From: Flavobacteriales bacterium
GTDB lineage: Bacteria > Bacteroidota > Bacteroidia > Flavobacteriales > Flavobacteriaceae
Direction of reading: 5' to 3'
DNA length: 64,000 bases
NCBI GenBank assembly: GCA_026993355.1
Contig: JALWTX010000008.1
Location: 62,001 to 126,000 of the forward strand
In this document: positions 52,629-59,396 of the stretch, piece after piece
Layout: every line of letters begins with the position of its first letter
Numbering within the stretch: position 1 is the first letter of the stretch
The notes under the pieces: model-generated
The model's input: the letters and a program-made list of their open reading frames with translations, nothing else
Databases searched by the model: none
What the model was told of the DNA's origin: nothing
Made by a program: the position numbers and the translations under genes

Positions 52629-53414
52629 TTAAAGTTTATAACCTATTGATATGCCCCAGACTTTAAAGTTGTAAAAGCTTCTTCTAATGCTTCCTGAATT
52701 AGGATTTAAATTATTGATGTCTTTGCTGCCAAACAATTTGGTATTAAATTCTTTTTGTTTTAAAAAGTAAAAATTAAATGACCATTTTTCTGACGGATAA
52801 AGCTTAAAACCGGTTTTAAGCCGGTAAGCATGTAAGCCGTTGGGCGAAGCTAACAGAGTTTTGTCACCATTAGGGTTGTAATATTGCAACAATCGGCCAT
52901 TTTGATACCAATATAATTTCTGTGAAATGTAGGGTTTTAATTTCCAAGGCATTTTGTGTTTGTTTTTATATTCTAAATCGAAACGGAAGTAAAAACGCTC
53001 TTGCCATTTGGCCCGTTGTGTAAAATGATATTCGGCAACAAGATAATTTTTCATATACAAATGACGGACAATTTTATGCCTGAATTTTAATTTTGCACTC
53101 AATCGATGATAAACCAGTTGATTGCCGGCAATATTATCTATTGAGAATGTAGGGGTGTAATTAATGCCGGTTGACCAATGATTGGCCAGTTTTAAATTCA
53201 ATCCAATATCAGATTGGATAAAATTGATTTGTCCGGTATTTAAGTTAAAAGAATTAATTTGATAATAGTTCAAACTTACGTCTTTACTCAGTTTTTTATG
53301 CAATCCGAATGACCCCCAAAACATTTGATGGTCTGTTTCTGTAATTTGACTGTTGATGCTAAAACTAAAGCCCAGTAAAATGAATAATGTCCAGTATTTT
53401 TTTCGTCGTATCAT
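52629..53414 (-). CDS. DUF2490 outer-membrane beta-barrel protein
   Basis: A protein of about 261 residues. I start at the ATG at 53414 (MIRRKKYWTLFILLGFSFSI), which gives a signal peptide ending INSQ. The body consists of amphipathic beta-strands typical of DUF2490 (MFWGSFGLHKKLSKDVSLNY, HWSTGINYTPTFSI, YMKNYLVAEYHFTQRAKWQE, ISIGYKL at the end with a terminal aromatic/hydrophobic residue). The family is predicted to be outer-membrane porin-like barrels of unknown substrate. It lies 11 bases before the P-loop NTPase gene. A hairpin between it and the upstream lipoprotein gene may lower but need not abolish read-through. Confidence 0.82.
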   Translation of the reverse strand: MIRRKKYWTLFILLGFSFSINSQITETDHQMFWGSFGLHKKLSKDVSLNYYQINSFNLNTGQINFIQSDIGLNLKLANHWSTGINYTPTFSIDNIAGNQLVYHRLSAKLKFRHKIVRHLYMKNYLVAEYHFTQRAKWQERFYFRFDLEYKNKHKMPWKLKPYISQKLYWYQNGRLLQYYNPNGDKTLLASPNGLHAYRLKTGFKLYPSEKWSFNFYFLKQKEFNTKLFGSKDINNLNPNSGSIRRSFYNFKVWGISIGYKL

Positions 53415-53434
53415 TTTTAAATTAAAATTTATCA

Positions 53435-53465
53435 CCCCTCTATTTTTTTAATTTTAATAGAGGGG
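53435..53465 (-). terminator. hairpin after the DUF4382-like lipoprotein gene
   Basis: CCCCTCTATT (53435-53444) and AATAGAGGGG (53456-53465) form a perfect 10-bp stem with an 11-base loop. No long T run follows on the minus strand, so it may act as an attenuator or mRNA stabiliser within the operon. Confidence 0.65.
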
Positions 53466-53488: not shown

Positions 53489-54148
53489 TTAGTGTTTGCA
53501 AAAATCCATTACATCTTCAAAATTACTTTCAACAATGTCTTGTAAATCAGCATTAGAATTGGCATTAATTCTTATTACACCATCAGCATCAACAGTAGCT
53601 GTAGAGAAATCAACTCCACTGAATAAACTTGGCAGGTCAATTTGTAAAGCAAAAGTTACAATATCGCCAGGATCTACAGATACGCCATCAGGATTTTCAA
53701 TTTTGAATTCGGCATCAACTTTTGAGGTGAATTCAAATTGAAAATCAACCCCGGCGACAGTTGCTGTTCCGTTAATTTCTAAGGAATTGCCGGTGGGCAA
53801 GACATTGTCAAACTTTACTTTGAGTTTGTGGTAAACACCGGGTTCAATTTCGACCGTTGGTAAGGGCGGCGTACTGGTGCCGGTTAAGATATCAAAACTA
53901 TAGTTACCTTTGTATTTATAATCCTGATCATCTCCATTCATTTCTCTTTCAAATTTTACTTTTTTAACACCGACCACGGCTTTGCTAAAGGTAAAACTTA
54001 CGGGAGCAGGCACTCTGCTAAAACTTCTAGCTGCCGTACTTTGGTCGGTAATCGTAAAATTAGCTTCGGCTGTTTGCGGGTCTTTTTTACAACTTGACAA
54101 AGCAGTTAAGACCAATAGGACAGTTAATAATTTAAGTGTTGTTTTCAT
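53489..54148 (-). CDS. DUF4382-like lipoprotein
   Basis: A 219-residue lipoprotein. The signal peptide ends in LSSC, with C20 followed by KKDPQ. The mature protein has a beta-rich domain in the style of DUF4382: VVGVKKVKFEREMNGDDQDY, SFDILTG and VEIEPGVYHKLKVKFDNV. A second beta-rich part follows (VDPGDIVTFALQIDLPSLF). The function is unknown; such proteins are usually surface or periplasmic. It lies 44 bases after the repeat lipoprotein gene and both may respond to the ECF-type element upstream. It ends in a CKH tail (DFCKH). Confidence 0.75.
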   Translation of the reverse strand: MKTTLKLLTVLLVLTALSSCKKDPQTAEANFTITDQSTAARSFSRVPAPVSFTFSKAVVGVKKVKFEREMNGDDQDYKYKGNYSFDILTGTSTPPLPTVEIEPGVYHKLKVKFDNVLPTGNSLEINGTATVAGVDFQFEFTSKVDAEFKIENPDGVSVDPGDIVTFALQIDLPSLFSGVDFSTATVDADGVIRINANSNADLQDIVESNFEDVMDFCKH

Positions 54149-54192: not shown

Positions 54193-55266
54193 TTAGGGAC
54201 AATTGCTTTTTAATTTCATTTTATTATGATCGTCTATACTTAATTTCAGTTTTTTCTCTTGCGTGTCATTTTCTATTTTTTCGACCTGCCAATTGCCTGA
54301 TAGATCCGCAAGACCGGTTATATTTATTTGCAAGACAATTTGATTGCCGGATTGTTGGGCTTGCCATTGGCCAATATATGTTTGACTGTTGTAAGTTACA
54401 TTTAAGGTGCCATTGCTTAAAAAGTGTAAATAATAATTTTCATAATTGTCGCTTAAGTCTGTATTGTTTCTATCCAACTCGTCAATCCACCAATTAGGGC
54501 AAGCGGTTAATATACCCGTTATTAATTGCGTCGTACAACCTGTACAGTCGTCATCATGATAATCGTTATCGTCATCTTCATCACAGTCATCTTGGTGTTG
54601 TTCGATAGCTTGTGATAATTCTTGTAGGTTGTGAAGGCTTATTTCACTGCCATCGGCAAGTTTTAAGGCAATTGGAAACTGAAAATTTAATACATCATGA
54701 TCGTCTAAATGTGCTAAAACATGATGCAGTTCTTCATCGTTATTAACCGTTATTTCACGTGTTTGTTCCGTAATAGTATTAAAAATTTGGAGGCTTAACG
54801 GATAGACAAAATCAACACATTCAATATCATCATCCGGTTCATTTTCATCGGTAGATTGAGCTACATAGGCGTCAAATTCTGCTTGATTATGCACAACGAC
54901 CTCTGTGTAATCAGGTAAAATTAAAGTAACGGGAAAAACAATTTGAATAGTATCCACATCAAAATCTGATTGGTCTAATATATTTTCAACTTGTGCCAAA
55001 TCATCTTTGGTGTGAATGGTAATGGTTTGCCCGTTTACAATAACTGTATAGGGCATTTTAATACTTATATTATTGGCTTTGTCAATGATATTGTCAAATG
55101 AACCATCATGTAAAGTGACCTCTTTAATCAGTTGAGCTGTTTTACTACCGGCTGTAATTCCTTGATTATTTTCACTTGTCTCATTTATAACCACTTCTTT
55201 ACGGCAAGAAATGGTGATCAAGCTTAAAATCAAAAGAGCCATAAGTATTTTGATTGTTTTGTTCAT
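54193..55266 (-). CDS. repeat lipoprotein with acidic linker and lipocalin-like C-terminus
   Basis: About 357 residues. The start ATG at 55266 gives a lipoprotein signal ending in TISC (C21). Four related units follow at about 67-98, 107-138, 151-188 and 193-225. Each has an (F/Y/M)P-x-(T/S/A)-hydrophobic start and a (T/N)xx(D/E)L-type helix (such as MPYTVIVNGQTITIHTKDDL and FPIALKLADGSEISLHNLQE). An acidic linker at 226-240 (DDCDEDDDNDYHDDDC) could bind calcium or another metal. The C-terminal 110 residues look lipocalin-like (YLHFLSNGTLNVTYNSQTYI, QIVLQINITGLAD). Two Cys pairs lie after the linker (CTGC). It is the gene directly downstream of the minus-strand copy of the 30-nt element, divergent from the sigma gene. 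Function unknown. Confidence 0.8.
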   Translation of the reverse strand: MNKTIKILMALLILSLITISCRKEVVINETSENNQGITAGSKTAQLIKEVTLHDGSFDNIIDKANNISIKMPYTVIVNGQTITIHTKDDLAQVENILDQSDFDVDTIQIVFPVTLILPDYTEVVVHNQAEFDAYVAQSTDENEPDDDIECVDFVYPLSLQIFNTITEQTREITVNNDEELHHVLAHLDDHDVLNFQFPIALKLADGSEISLHNLQELSQAIEQHQDDCDEDDDNDYHDDDCTGCTTQLITGILTACPNWWIDELDRNNTDLSDNYENYYLHFLSNGTLNVTYNSQTYIGQWQAQQSGNQIVLQINITGLADLSGNWQVEKIENDTQEKKLKLSIDDHNKMKLKSNCP

Positions 55267-55293
55267 AGCAGCATTTTTGGGCGTTTTATTATA

Positions 55294-55323
55294 AAACAAC
55301 TCAAACGCAAAAACTCCTGAAAA
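55294..55323 (-). promoter_or_regulatory. 30-nt ECF-type element, copy upstream of the repeat lipoprotein gene
   Basis: Read on the minus strand, TTTTCAGGAGTTTT (55323-55310), 8 bases, then AGTTGTTT (55301-55294), followed by TATAATA. The same bases and spacing occur at 55927-55956 on the plus strand before fecR. It is followed by 27 bases to the ATG at 55266. I read GGAGTTTT as a -35-like and TATAATA as a -10-like region (inference). Confidence 0.7.
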
Positions 55324-55351
55324 AAATTATTTTATTTTGAAATTATTTTAA

Positions 55352-55394
55352 AACTTACTTTAACTTACTTCAAGTTAAAAAGTTTTTATCTTTG
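55352..55394 (+). promoter_or_regulatory. direct repeats and promoter of the ECF sigma gene
   Basis: AACTTACTT occurs twice (55352-55360 and 55362-55370) with exact 10-base periodicity, then CAAGTT, then TATCTTTG at 55387-55394 as a -7 box, 28 bases before the sigma ATG. Repeats on one helix face just upstream of a promoter suggest an operator, or a -35 region read by an ECF factor. Confidence 0.55.
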
Positions 55395-55422
55395 TAAAGT
55401 AATTTATACATTATATTATATA

Positions 55423-55926
55423 ATGAAAAACCTTTGTGTCGAAAGAATCTTTGAAGCTGTCTATAAAAAATTGTCCGGTGATTTGTATAATTTTCTGTAT
55501 TATAAGTATGGTAATCATGACGAAATAGCCGATGTGGTCCAAGAATCTTTTGTGAAGTTGTGGCAAAATTGTAAAAAGGTACTCCCCGAAAAAGCCCGTG
55601 GATTTTTATTTAAGGTTGCCAAAAATCAAATGCTTAATAAGTTTAAACACGACAAAGTGGTGTTAAATTATCAACAAAAGCTGACTGATAAAGTTGAGCA
55701 TAGAAACCCAGAATATCTTTTGGAAGAAGCCCAATTTTATCAAAAATATCAGCAGGCTTTGGGTAAATTAACCGATGAACAACGGGTCGCTTTTTTGTTG
55801 AATAAAGTGGAAGGAAAAAAACATAAAGAAATTGCCGAAATGCTCAATGTTACTCAAAAAGTAGTAGAATATAGAATTTACAGTGCTTTTAAAATTATTA
55901 AGAAAGAAATACAAGAATTGAAATAA
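55423..55926 (+). CDS. ECF-type RNA polymerase sigma factor
   Basis: A 167-residue sigma-70 family factor with only regions 2 and 4. Region 2 runs from about residue 8 to 75, with core-binding YKYGNHDEIADVVQESFVKL and the -10-reading KLWQNCKKVLPEKARGFLFK. Region 4 is about 110-160, with LTDEQRVAFLLNKVEGKKHK and the helix-turn-helix EIAEMLNVTQKVVEYRIYSA. Position upstream of a FecR anti-sigma and a TonB receptor with STN domain makes it a FecI-type factor driven from the cell surface. The two 30-nt elements flanking it suggest that it activates fecR and the divergent lipoprotein gene. The gene ends 52 bases before fecR. Confidence 0.93.
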   Translation: MKNLCVERIFEAVYKKLSGDLYNFLYYKYGNHDEIADVVQESFVKLWQNCKKVLPEKARGFLFKVAKNQMLNKFKHDKVVLNYQQKLTDKVEHRNPEYLLEEAQFYQKYQQALGKLTDEQRVAFLLNKVEGKKHKEIAEMLNVTQKVVEYRIYSAFKIIKKEIQELK

Positions 55927-55956
55927 TTTTCAGGAGTTTTGTAACTTAAGTTGTTT
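55927..55956 (+). promoter_or_regulatory. 30-nt ECF-type element, copy upstream of fecR
   Basis: TTTTCAGGAGTTTT (55927-55940), 8 bases, AGTTGTTT (55949-55956), then AGTATATAA. It begins one base after the sigma stop codon and lies 22 bases before the fecR ATG. Its 8-base spacer overlaps a palindrome, AACTTAAGTT (55943-55952). The match to 55294-55323 is 22 fixed bases plus 2 spacer bases in 30. Confidence 0.7.
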
Positions 55957-55978
55957 AGTATATAAGAATATCTGTCAA

Positions 55979-56881
55979 ATGGACAAAGAAAATTTAATTT
56001 ATAAATGGCTTAATGGTCAGTTAACCGGAGAGGAAAAGAAGGCTTTTGAACAATTGCCGGATTACGATTTGAATGTGAAAATTATAGAGGGGGCTAAACG
56101 TTTTAAAGCGCCCGAATTTCCAGTTGAAAAAAAATATACGGAATTAAAATCCCGTTTAAAACACTATAAGAATGAAAGTCAATATTTTAACCCGGTTTGG
56201 CTTTATCGTATGGCAGCTATTTTTATAATTGCTTTAACGGCTTACTTTTATATCCAATCCAATACAGTTGAAATAAAAACCTTAGCTTTTGAAAAAAAAC
56301 AAGTAGTGCTACCCGATGCTTCCATAGTTTGGCTTAATGCTCATTCAAAATTAACATACAATAAATTTTTATGGCACCTAAAACGACAATTAAAAATGTC
56401 CGGCGATGCTTTTTTTAAAGTGACCAAAGGCTCACGCTTTGATGTACATACCCCATCCGGTATCGTTAGCGTGGTAGGGACTGAATTTGAAGTAAAAGCA
56501 GGGACTGAAATTTTTGAAGTGCGATGTTTTGAAGGGGTTGTAAAAGTTAAAATTCATAAAAAAACAGTCGTGTTAACCCATGGTGAAGCTTTGCAGGCCA
56601 CTCATAAGCAAATTCAAAAAATACCGGTTTTACAACCCAAACCTGAATGGCTTGACAACGATGATCAATTTAAAAGTGTTCCTTTGTCAACAGTGCTGCA
56701 AGCAATAGAAAAACAATATAAGGTGAAAATCAAAACACAAGATATTGATACCAATCAATTATATACGGGTGCTTTTGCGCGTCATGATTTAAAATTGGCA
56801 CTTAAAGCCCTTGTAGAAGCCTTCGGATTGACCTATCGTTATGATGAAACACATAAAATTGTGCTGATCAGTGCCAATTAA
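55979..56881 (+). CDS. FecR-type anti-sigma/transducer protein
   Basis: A 300-residue inner-membrane protein that holds and releases the ECF sigma factor. The N-terminal cytoplasmic part (about 1-65) is followed by one membrane span (YRMAAIFIIALTAYFYI, about 77-95). Next is the FecR core (QVVLPDASIVWLNAHSKLTY, GDAFFKVTKGSRFDVHTPSG, VVGTEFEVKAGTEIFEV, EGVVKVKIHKKTVVLTHGEA). The C-terminal domain (about 225-300, VPLSTVLQAIEKQYKVKIKT) is of the DUF4974 type found in Bacteroidota. It overlaps the TonB receptor gene by 11 bases, so the two are coupled. Confidence 0.93.
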   Translation: MDKENLIYKWLNGQLTGEEKKAFEQLPDYDLNVKIIEGAKRFKAPEFPVEKKYTELKSRLKHYKNESQYFNPVWLYRMAAIFIIALTAYFYIQSNTVEIKTLAFEKKQVVLPDASIVWLNAHSKLTYNKFLWHLKRQLKMSGDAFFKVTKGSRFDVHTPSGIVSVVGTEFEVKAGTEIFEVRCFEGVVKVKIHKKTVVLTHGEALQATHKQIQKIPVLQPKPEWLDNDDQFKSVPLSTVLQAIEKQYKVKIKTQDIDTNQLYTGAFARHDLKLALKALVEAFGLTYRYDETHKIVLISAN

Positions 56882-59396
56882 GCGGGAATATTATTTATTA
56901 TGGGTCTTATTTTTATATTTGGCTTATGCGGGGCATGCACAGTCAAAGCAATTAGATTTACTGCCATTAAAAACGGTTTTATCACAATTAGAGCAAAAAT
57001 TCAATTGTCGCTTTACTTATGCCGATGCCGTAGTCGACCCTATTTATGTGCCCTCTATTCCTCAAACTTTGTCTTTAAAATTAAGTCTGCAATTTTTGCA
57101 TAAATACAGTGGTTTAGATTTTAAGCCTTTATCGGACAATCAAATTGTAATTGCCTTGCCAAAATCCACTTTTATATTTTGTGGTTATATTTTAGAAGAA
57201 CAAACTAAAATACCGGTAGCTTCAGCCCTTGTTGACATAAACGGAAAATTTGTTAAAACAGATAACCATGGCTATTTTATTATCCGCTTACATCAAAAAA
57301 ATGCAGAATTGAAGGTGCGTCATCCTGCCTTTTACCGGATTTCCAAGCATATAGTAGCTAAGCAAAATAAAAAATGTCTAACCCTATATTTAACGCCAAA
57401 GTTAAATCTTCTTTCGACTGTTTTTTTGCATAATCTGATGGCCAAAGGTATTTATAAGGAGACAAATGGTGCCACGAGTATCAATCTTCATAAATTCGGC
57501 ATTTTACCGGGCTTAATAGAACCTGATGTATTACAAACCTTACAAGCCTTACCGGCTGTAGAAAGCGTTTACGAAAAGGTGTCAAATATCAATATAAGAG
57601 GTGGTACAAATGACCAAAATCTAATTCTTTGGGATGGGATTCGTCTTTATCAAACAGGACATTTTTTTGGATTAATTACAGCCATAAATCCACTTATGGT
57701 CCATAAAGTATCTTTAATAGAAAATGCAACGCCTGCCATATATACCAATGCCGTTTCAGGTACCATATTAATGAATTCGAAAAAACAAATGCCACAAAAA
57801 ATGAGGGCGAAAGCCGGCGTAAATTTTATTAATACAGATATATGGTTCAGCCTGCCGGTAGGTAAAACTTCTGCACTGGAAATAAGCGGACGCAAAGCTA
57901 TCAGTCCTTGGGTGCAAACGCCTGCTTATGCACAATATTACCGTCGCATTTTACAAAATACCGAAGTAACCAATCAGAGTTTGTCTAATGGCGAAGCGCA
58001 TATCAATTTTGATTTTTATGATTTCTCTCTTAAATACCAATTCAGGCCTTCCCACAAAAATTTTTGGCGCCTTAACTTCATGTATATAGCTGATAATTTT
58101 CAATTTAATAAACAAGCGGTTTTGGCCGGAATCAATCAAAATAAAGAAGGCGAATTGTTACAAAAAAATATGGCCGAAGGCCTTTTTTGGCAACATAAAT
58201 GGCGAGCAAAACTTACAAGCTATTTTCAAATTTATGAAACCGACTACCAACTAAAAGCACTTCATAATGATTTAGCATCCGGTAAAATTTTGCAACAAGC
58301 CAATGCCGTTTCAGAAACCTCCGTTAAGGCTTGGACAACTTACGATCTAAAGCCGCATTTGTTATGGACCAATGGCTACCATTTTATTGAAAATGGCACG
58401 AGTAATTTGACACAACTCAATCAGCCGAGGATTTTGAGTTACAGACGTGAAGTAATGCGGATGCATAGTTTATTTTCTCAAATGGATGCGGGATTAATAG
58501 GCCAAAAAATCAAATTATCATTGGCACTGCGTTATAATTACTTAGAAAAATTTAAGCAATTCTTTTGGTCTCCGCGTTTTCATTTAAATTATAAATTTAA
58601 TTCATCATGGCATTTTACTTTTTCTGCTGAATTGAAACAGCAATTTATATCGCAGATCATCAATTTTCAAACAGACTTTTTAGGGATTGAAAAAAGGAGA
58701 TGGCGTTTATCCAATGGCCGGAATGTTCCGGTTATAAGAAGTGAAAATATTTCTGCCGGACTGGCTTATAAACACCATGGCTGGCTGTTTAATGCCGAAA
58801 TTTATCATAAAAAAGTAAAGAATATTACGACCCAAAGTCAAGGTTTTGTTAATCAATATATCTATACCCAAGTTATTGGCGATTACGACGTGTCCGGTTT
58901 TGAAGTTTTGTTAAATAAACGAACCAAACAATTTAGTGTTTGGGCTGCTTATGCATATATGCACAATTATTATTTTTTTCCGGATTTGACAGAGAAACAT
59001 TTTCCTAATAATTGGGCCTTAAAACACCGGTTGACATCGGGAATTAGTTATCAAAACCGAAATTTTCAAACCAGTATCGGACTAAATTGGCACACCGGCA
59101 AACCAACAACGCTACCCATACCTGCACAAGCCGTTATAGCAAACCAAATAAATTTTGACAGGGCTAATGCTGCGCTTCTCCCTGATTATTTACGGATTGA
59201 TTGGTCAGCAAATTATCATTTTAATATGACTAAAAATGTTAAAATGGAACTTGGAGCTTCTATTTGGAATTTGACTAATCGTAAAAATATTTTGAGCAAA
59301 TATTATGTTTTGGACAGCAATCAAACCTTAATTGAATATCAACAAAAATCTTTAAGATTGACTCCTAATTTAAGTATTCGTTTGGTTTTAAATTAA
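56871..59396 (+). CDS. TonB-dependent receptor with STN signalling domain
   Basis: An 841-residue outer-membrane receptor. A signal peptide (about 1-24, ending GHAQ) leads to an STN domain (about 28-90: LPLKTVLSQLEQKFNCRFTY, QTLSLKLSLQFLHKYSGLDF), which transmits ligand binding to FecR. A carboxypeptidase-regulatory-like domain (about 95-175), a plug (ALPAVESVYEKVSNINIRGG, AIYTNAVSGTILMNSKKQ) and a C-terminal barrel ending SIRLVLN follow. The start codon is GTG, inside the end of fecR. No SusD partner is adjacent, so this is not a standard glycan utilisation pair. The ligand is unknown; siderophore-like or other chelate uptake fits the FecIRA type. Confidence 0.92.
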   Translation: MPIKREYYLLWVLFLYLAYAGHAQSKQLDLLPLKTVLSQLEQKFNCRFTYADAVVDPIYVPSIPQTLSLKLSLQFLHKYSGLDFKPLSDNQIVIALPKSTFIFCGYILEEQTKIPVASALVDINGKFVKTDNHGYFIIRLHQKNAELKVRHPAFYRISKHIVAKQNKKCLTLYLTPKLNLLSTVFLHNLMAKGIYKETNGATSINLHKFGILPGLIEPDVLQTLQALPAVESVYEKVSNINIRGGTNDQNLILWDGIRLYQTGHFFGLITAINPLMVHKVSLIENATPAIYTNAVSGTILMNSKKQMPQKMRAKAGVNFINTDIWFSLPVGKTSALEISGRKAISPWVQTPAYAQYYRRILQNTEVTNQSLSNGEAHINFDFYDFSLKYQFRPSHKNFWRLNFMYIADNFQFNKQAVLAGINQNKEGELLQKNMAEGLFWQHKWRAKLTSYFQIYETDYQLKALHNDLASGKILQQANAVSETSVKAWTTYDLKPHLLWTNGYHFIENGTSNLTQLNQPRILSYRREVMRMHSLFSQMDAGLIGQKIKLSLALRYNYLEKFKQFFWSPRFHLNYKFNSSWHFTFSAELKQQFISQIINFQTDFLGIEKRRWRLSNGRNVPVIRSENISAGLAYKHHGWLFNAEIYHKKVKNITTQSQGFVNQYIYTQVIGDYDVSGFEVLLNKRTKQFSVWAAYAYMHNYYFFPDLTEKHFPNNWALKHRLTSGISYQNRNFQTSIGLNWHTGKPTTLPIPAQAVIANQINFDRANAALLPDYLRIDWSANYHFNMTKNVKMELGASIWNLTNRKNILSKYYVLDSNQTLIEYQQKSLRLTPNLSIRLVLN

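Follow-up and report, generated by a model that had tools for sequence, protein, structure and literature searches.

Genes for an extracytoplasmic function (ECF) σ factor, a FecR-type regulator and a TonB-dependent receptor adjoin one another in the FecI/FecR/FecA system (PMC9249621), and they do so in the locus described here, whose σ gene, as in the account given there, is apparently not autoregulated. The locus lies in a 64,000-nt stretch of DNA from a Flavobacteriales bacterium (the window, G000:C8:62001-126000; genome G000 comprises 2.2 Mb in 22 contigs), and consists of genes for a DUF2490-like protein, a DUF4382 protein and a 357-aa lipoprotein on the minus strand and for the ECF σ factor, FecR and the receptor on the plus strand. 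A 30-nt promoter-like element stands on either side of the σ gene. The locus differs from the E. coli layout in that a promoter appears to lie between the σ gene and fecR, and the anti-σ factor and the receptor, not the σ factor, would be induced; it also differs in that a second promoter of the same type would precede the divergent lipoprotein gene, whose family is unnamed. We consider it very probable, judging from the sequence, that the two elements are paired target promoters of the ECF σ factor encoded between them.

At two ECF-dependent promoters of Bacteroides thetaiotaomicron, TGTT is reported near −10, the whole motif not being significant there (PMC12596196), and the −30/−10 promoters linked to SigW-1 and SigH-1 of this species (PMC12596196, PMC7366714) resemble the elements studied here in having TGTT at about −10 in a Bacteroidota ECF regulon. 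As described in these sources, the B. thetaiotaomicron promoters lie away from the σ gene or are many, whereas the pair studied here is local and nearly private (the comparison covers the −10 letters and the placement of the promoters). Members of our σ clade with aspartate at residue 72 (D72) share CGTT or CGTC with the SM6 ECF motif of Flavobacterium psychrophilum; in the account of PMC9723704, SM6 genes include secretion components and the SM6 σ factor is not firmly assigned. Unlike SM6, the N72 σ factors go with TGTT, and the −35 element is lineage-specific (TCAGG, GTAGG or TYGGG). The residue-to-promoter code of Todor et al. 2020, as described in PMC8103513, was built on autoregulated ECF σ factors; as in that code, −35 and −10 letters are related here to DNA-contacting residues, but our clade is mostly not autoregulated and has two promoters per σ factor. 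A 2013 Bacteroides study presents ECF promoter prediction as a challenge that needs start-site data (PMC3878776). A literature search by title and abstract opening returned nothing on this promoter pair, which does not establish novelty in print.

The paired elements in the window and in relatives

The first-pass annotation of the window had placed TTTTCAGGAGTTTT-N8-AGTTGTTT at 55927-55956 (plus strand) before fecR and at 55323-55294 (minus strand) before the divergent lipoprotein gene. Both sites were confirmed, as were the distances of 22 nt to the fecR ATG (55979) and 27 nt to the lipoprotein ATG (first base 55266). Direct comparison also reproduced the agreement of 24 of 30 bases; the description of the 30-nt element as identical was too strong, because six mismatches, all of them in the N8 spacer, leave 24 of 30. 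The features concerned are the following:

55423..55926, plus strand: ECF σ factor, 167 aa, regions 2 and 4; recognition-helix residue Y150, region-2 residue N72
55979..56881, plus strand: FecR-type anti-σ factor/transducer, 300 aa, assigned by family matches
54193..55266, minus strand: lipoprotein, 357 aa, of a family without Pfam or NCBIfam model
55294..55323, minus strand: predicted ECF promoter, lipoprotein arm; −35 TCAGGA at 55320-55315, −10 TGTT at 55298-55295
55927..55956, plus strand: predicted ECF promoter, fecR arm; −35 TCAGGA at 55930-55935, −10 TGTT at 55952-55955
55387..55394, plus strand: TATCTTTG, housekeeping-type −7 box (TAnnTTTG), probable σ-gene promoter

The −10 core is best taken as TGTT rather than the whole of AGTTGTTT. 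In the register of the Mycobacterium tuberculosis SigH promoter (G at −11), as given in PMC6411747, transcription is predicted to start near 55286 in the lipoprotein arm (leader of about 20 nt) and near 55964 in the fecR arm (leader of about 15 nt).

A scan of the 2.2-Mb genome retrieved exactly two exact matches to the pattern and none to a reversed-pattern control. When up to three mismatches were allowed, just two matches were found in the 64-kb window and none in 100 dinucleotide shuffles. A shorter, 26-nt pattern, again with up to three mismatches, retrieved six further places in G000, each with three mismatches (the control had two matches); five overlap long reading frames on one strand or the other, and the sixth is intergenic, away from a gene start. 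With a profile built from the sequences of 14 related elements, the window's own two included, the two arms scored E = 4.2e-5 and 1.3e-5, and the next best place in the genome 0.146. As only the two arms match exactly and score strongly with the profile, the window genome seems to hold two such promoters and no broad set. The earlier proposal that the element ties both arms into one regulon is supported, with the refinement that in this genome the regulon seems to consist of just these two promoters.

Homologues of the σ factor at E 1e-10 or better were present in 33 of the 60 genomes searched (own genome included), and a relative at 1e-30 in 178 of 249 family genomes searched. The order of a divergent lipoprotein gene followed by σ gene, fecR and receptor gene was common among 40 oriented loci, of which 25 had a divergent lipoprotein start and 37 a fecR start (neighbours were compared using six window proteins, and loci without a located fecR or lipoprotein start were left out of the arm denominators). 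Expectation-maximisation (EM) motif search of the 37 fecR upstream regions alone yielded a gapless 32-nt element with majority letters aGGTAGGGtTTT..TTGTTATAT, which reads −35 TCAGGA and −10 TGTT at a fixed spacing. It was found in-sample in 35 of the 37 fecR arms at p ≤ 0.01 and, as learned from fecR, in all 25 lipoprotein upstream regions (p 0.002 to 0.016). The same matrix, at 10 bits or more, matched 77 of 80 fecR arms and 78 of 81 lipoprotein arms of 86 further loci as a gapless 32-mer, i.e., with the strict two-box spacing that is a trait of ECF promoters; none of the 86 σ-gene upstream regions of these loci reached 10 bits, and two reached 5 bits. A separate collection of 80 loci, overlapping the earlier sets (13 of 77 σ proteins are identical to earlier ones), had a divergent σ gene in 77 and the element in 68/80 lipoprotein arms, 66/75 fecR arms and 0/77 σ upstream regions; many of its weaker arms have another −35, TTGGGAC. 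In fecR arms of at least 5 bits, the element is 4-23 nt away from the gene, with one exception (35 nt); in lipoprotein arms, the distance is 15-87 nt. Comparison of the same locus in relatives, as the first-pass annotation had suggested, shows that the paired elements recur across Flavobacteriaceae.

In a distant ECF set (20 loci), the fecR element was present in two of the nine loci with a located fecR; therefore, the arrangement belongs to this σ clade and not to all FecR-linked σ factors. Strong profile matches were obtained in the seven searched genomes with a close σ homologue, whose elements had built the profile, and a match at E ≤ 0.01 was obtained in each of 12 genomes outside the profile. 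No strong element was found in five searched congeners lacking a σ match (best E 0.18-0.82; a sixth, G010, was outside the search). Presence among the 12 congeners G001-G012 is patchy: three have a close homologue (67-83% identity), three have distant ones only and six gave no match at 1e-10. The window genome encodes a second σ factor of this clade (L078, G000:C3:10834-11322), with aspartate at residue 72 and, upstream of its fecR, a GTAGGG/CGTT element; a lipoprotein partner was not found within the 4.5 kb examined.

The two arms of a locus match each other. In 25 loci, same-locus arms differed on average at 4.52 of 21 element positions, compared to 8.04 for permuted pairs (permutation p 5e-5), and at 4.76 versus 4.96 of 8 spacer positions (p 0.22). 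Paralogous modules within one genome have their own −35 letters, matched between arms: among 19 pairs, taken from 17 genomes with one genome contributing three, 18 showed greater similarity between own than between crossed arms; for the spacer, the outcome was 8 versus 8 with 3 ties. The match of the element without a match of the spacer argues against plain DNA descent and for one shared reader per module. Outside the shared letters, the 95 two-arm loci mostly have TTTT after the −35 in the lipoprotein arm (63/95) and TTTT (38) or AAAA (22) in the fecR arm; the base after TGTT is T in 67/95 lipoprotein arms and A in 67/95 fecR arms.

The σ gene of the window has no element upstream (p = 0.98) and is apparently not positively autoregulated. 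The sequence TATCTTTG, 28 nt before its start codon, is of the TAnnTTTG type, the Bacteroidota housekeeping box (PMC9723704, PMC7366714). Such a box was found in the 90 nt preceding the gene for 34 of 122 σ genes (shuffled sequences would give 7.1), and for 1 of 114 fecR genes (8.0 expected) and 5 of 106 lipoprotein genes (8.2 expected); loci L081, L073 and L023 were dropped from these counts and from those for N72/D72, mutual information and residue 150 below, and L022, L080 and L074 from the last two as well. Many σ genes therefore seem to be served by a housekeeping promoter and the two arms not, which bears out both the housekeeping-like promoter proposed for the σ gene and the distinction drawn between the element and the TAnnTTTG type. 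Among 39 σ upstream regions scored in the first set, one true match was obtained (L071); a match at L081 was rejected as an artefact of a σ gene cut by the contig end, and four others had p 0.012-0.018 with at most 1.5 bits. The L071 element (G031:C4; 12.3 bits, GAGGGTTTT..ACGTTTGAT) is the only clear one upstream of a σ gene and resembles the fecR arm of the same locus, which is apparently an autoregulated member of the clade.

Promoter letters and σ residues

Over 181 σ rows, residue 150 was compared with the −35 element: K150 occurs with GTAGG (64 loci, both arms), Y150 with tCAGG (66) and H150 with tYGGG (9), while no Y150 locus was coded GTAGG and no K150 locus tCAGG. Normalised mutual information between −35 positions 2-3 and σ columns was highest for residues 144, 147, 150, 156 and 128, all of which we assign to region 4. 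The mean of the top five values was 0.77 and 0.81 (two arms) for region 4, 0.26 for region 2 and 0.37 for the linker, and the DNA spacer shared at most 0.18 with any σ region.

In an ungapped alignment to Bacillus subtilis SigW, residues 147 and 150 fall on T168 and T171, which are reported, like T169 and S172 of E. coli SigE, to contact position −34 (PMC6713349). If the invariant G of TGTT corresponds to the −11 G of the M. tuberculosis SigH promoter, the two variable −35 letters would be −34 and −33; S182 of SigH, which is described as bonding to −33 (PMC6411747), is probably the counterpart of residue 150.

As to the −10 element, N72 or D72 went perfectly with T or C at position 24 in 33 loci (1.0), an association that rests on few lineages, because the five D loci of the larger set are the same ones. 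The window and most relatives have TGTT and the D72 members CGTT or CGTC, to be compared with the CGT-type −10 that PMC8103513 lists, together with a −35 AAC, among traits from the earliest ECF classification that are not regarded as defining any more; in place of AAC, the window has TCAGGA and others GTAGG or TYGGG. The association of residue 150 with the −35 letters, though it goes back to few events, is consistent with region 4 reading the −35 element and with residue 150 being a main determinant.

Alternative explanations and proposed mechanism

Matching of the two arms would by itself be expected of any regulator that they share, and the element could then be an operator of another DNA-binding protein, an activator or repressor of both arms; the comparison of neighbours with six window proteins leaves room for regulator genes nearby. 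We regard this as very improbable in view of the two boxes at fixed spacing, the few TAnnTTTG boxes in either arm, the distances of 4-23 nt to fecR (35 nt in the one exception) and of 15-87 nt to the lipoprotein gene, and the −35 letters that track a residue of the σ recognition helix. The elements could also be ECF promoters that are used by different or by several ECF σ factors of the cell: G000 encodes eight proteins with a σ region 2, and sharing of ECF promoters has been suggested for F. psychrophilum (PMC9723704). This, too, is very improbable, since the related σ factor encoded on G000:C3 has its own residue 72 and a differently lettered element before its own fecR, same-genome paralogues each have letters of their own, on which their two arms agree, and the five congeners without a match to this σ factor have no strong element. 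Finally, the 24 of 30 bases alike in the window might stem from a functionless duplication or gene conversion of recent, local origin, but this is scarcely credible: the six differences are confined to the spacer, which in other loci is unmatched between arms, and the pair of elements is found across the family.

Besides the eight region-2 proteins, several observations weigh against the assignment of the elements to the σ factor between them. The EM motif was not found in the fecR arms of L073 and L023, the fecR arms of L227, L232 and L233 failed, the lipoprotein arms of L160, L173 and L222 stayed below 10 bits, and one paralogue pair, in G228, does not sort. In congener G002, which has no σ match, the 26-nt pattern occurs with one mismatch on the strand opposite a 232-aa reading frame. 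In five Y150 loci one arm reads tYGGG, and in nine the −35 of the lipoprotein arm is TCAGTA or TCAGTG. The −10 letters have no clear region preference (region 2 0.26-0.30, region 4 0.24-0.27), and a candidate pairing of −10 position 23 with residue 75 was rejected (normalised mutual information 0.43-0.54, but 13 versus 5 tree changes and a sign test that was not significant). On a FecR tree with 173 rows, three code changes are needed for the 164 clear-code rows, the same three as residue 150, but in these rows code and residue labels coincide and nine rows are left out. Over all 173 rows, residue 150 changes four times and H150 has at least two origins, on starred branches; in a smaller tree of 111 rows, −35 type and residue 150 change once only (K to Y). 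Both trees are quick ones, their starred branches being less trustworthy, and because there are only three to four switches, the many agreeing loci amount to few independent events.

As for the loci concerned, the fecR arms of L227, L232 and L233 carry GTAGTA or GTAGCA instead of GTAGGR, and no lipoprotein partner was found; they possibly represent a further −35 type or a shifted spacing. The nine loci with TCAGTA or TCAGTG in the lipoprotein arm are L189, L279, L281, L290, L298, L299, L319, L320 and L331; their fecR arm, where found, has tCAGG or AAGG.

That the elements are target promoters of this ECF σ factor, as was proposed in the first-pass annotation, is supported by two-arm conservation, within-locus matching, the weak or absent element in five σ-less congeners and the agreement of −35 letters with a σ residue. 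A basal amount of σ factor would be made from the housekeeping TAnnTTTG promoter and presumably held by FecR. Upon sensing of a ligand by the receptor, the σ factor would be freed and would direct RNA polymerase to TCAGGA (−35) and TGTT (−10) on both sides, with region 4 reading the −35 element and region 2 reading TGTT. On the right side, fecR and the receptor gene would be induced, renewing anti-σ factor and receptor, and the σ gene would not; on the left side, the lipoprotein gene would be induced, probably along with the DUF4382 and DUF2490 genes. As FecR and the receptor would rise and the σ factor would not, the response should be self-limiting.

Neighbouring genes and wider targets

The remaining genes of the locus are the following:

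56871..59396, plus strand: TonB-dependent receptor, plug and barrel, assigned by family matches; N-terminal region weakly FecR_C-like, below cut-off
53489..54148, minus strand: DUF4382 lipoprotein, downstream of the lipoprotein gene
52629..53435, minus strand: DUF2490-like protein, weak family match below cut-off; start uncertain

The σ factor matches PF04542, PF08281 and TIGR02937 above cut-off and TIGR02985 under its cut-off (114.3 vs 126.4 bits); it has only regions 2 and 4 as promoter-binding parts, a trait of ECF group IV. FecR matches PF04773 and PF16344 above cut-off and is encoded next to the σ gene, as in FecI/FecR/FecA signalling. Plug and barrel of the receptor are above cut-off, and its residues 32-94 match PF16344 below cut-off (19.1 vs 24.4 bits); the N-terminal region is a candidate signal-input domain. 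The DUF2490-like gene is a possible third gene of the minus arm; in one congener (L083), a homologue occupies the same position in the gene order.

No fitting model for the lipoprotein was found in Pfam or NCBIfam, and it has at least 543 relatives. Its predicted structure (mean predicted local distance difference test score 84, predicted template modelling score 0.56) consists of repeated small α/β units and a C-terminal lipocalin-like barrel. A Foldseek search with this model gave no match under E 0.001. Among the 50 matches listed by VIA-align, the best had Z 10.4 over 98 residues (root mean square deviation 2.9) and most are lipocalin-like barrels; with the whole model as query, the matched part corresponds to residues 236-357 or so. 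At residues 228-241 or thereabouts, the lipoprotein has a conserved Asp-rich stretch between cysteines (CDEDDD.D..DDDC), which perhaps binds metal. The protein may be a surface partner of the receptor.

DUF4382 homologues were present in 12 of 97 loci (two contigs are counted twice). In the window's genus, the DUF4382 gene follows the lipoprotein gene and has no element of its own; because of this and of the gap of 44 nt, the two genes probably form one transcription unit. Elsewhere, the DUF4382 gene has its own TCAGGA element (L272, 12.6 bits; L277, 16.0 bits; L295, 18.5 bits; and, weakly, L292, 1.9 bits; L326 could not be judged), and L094 has a 16.7-bit site that reads, by eye, GGGTAAA..TGTT, the letters of its own module at the same distance. 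The DUF4382 gene thus appears to be a third target in some relatives in which the two genes lie apart, and the window's DUF4382 gene is therefore linked to the regulon. The DUF4382 lipoprotein of L351 (1591-2301) resembles MbnP at E 0.002, below the threshold, which might point to a role in metal handling.

The profile search of the 12 genomes outside the profile retrieved 17 matches at E ≤ 0.01, 15 of which are at the two arms (24 arms expected). The other two lie, in L351, at the gene of a DUF4382 lipoprotein and, in L354, at that of a leucine-rich protein which is probably secreted; earlier profile searches had off-arm matches in L140, at a gene for a putative lipoprotein, and in L147, at one for an FG-GAP protein that bears a sorting tail.

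At this locus, a cognate pair of ECF promoters is well supported. The system is a FecI-type variant whose promoters are unusually laid out and whose specificity pattern can be read family-wide. We lean, if only slightly, towards the broader view that Flavobacteriaceae hold a large series of insulated σ-promoter pairs, in which each module has two or more promoters, the −35 element is set mainly by residue 150 of the module's own σ factor (K150 GTAGG, Y150 tCAGG, H150 tYGGG, with H having arisen at least twice) and paralogous modules do not cross-talk; the code would be readable from genomes because the promoter pair and, sometimes, a third promoter at DUF4382 change together. The finding is ordinary in kind, and its interest lies in scale and testability. 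As the paired arms provide an internal replicate in each genome, promoters of a widespread σ clade become readable without expression data, and the link of one σ residue to promoter letters becomes testable. The pair also exposes a common, unnamed lipoprotein family that is apparently co-regulated with a TonB-dependent receptor.
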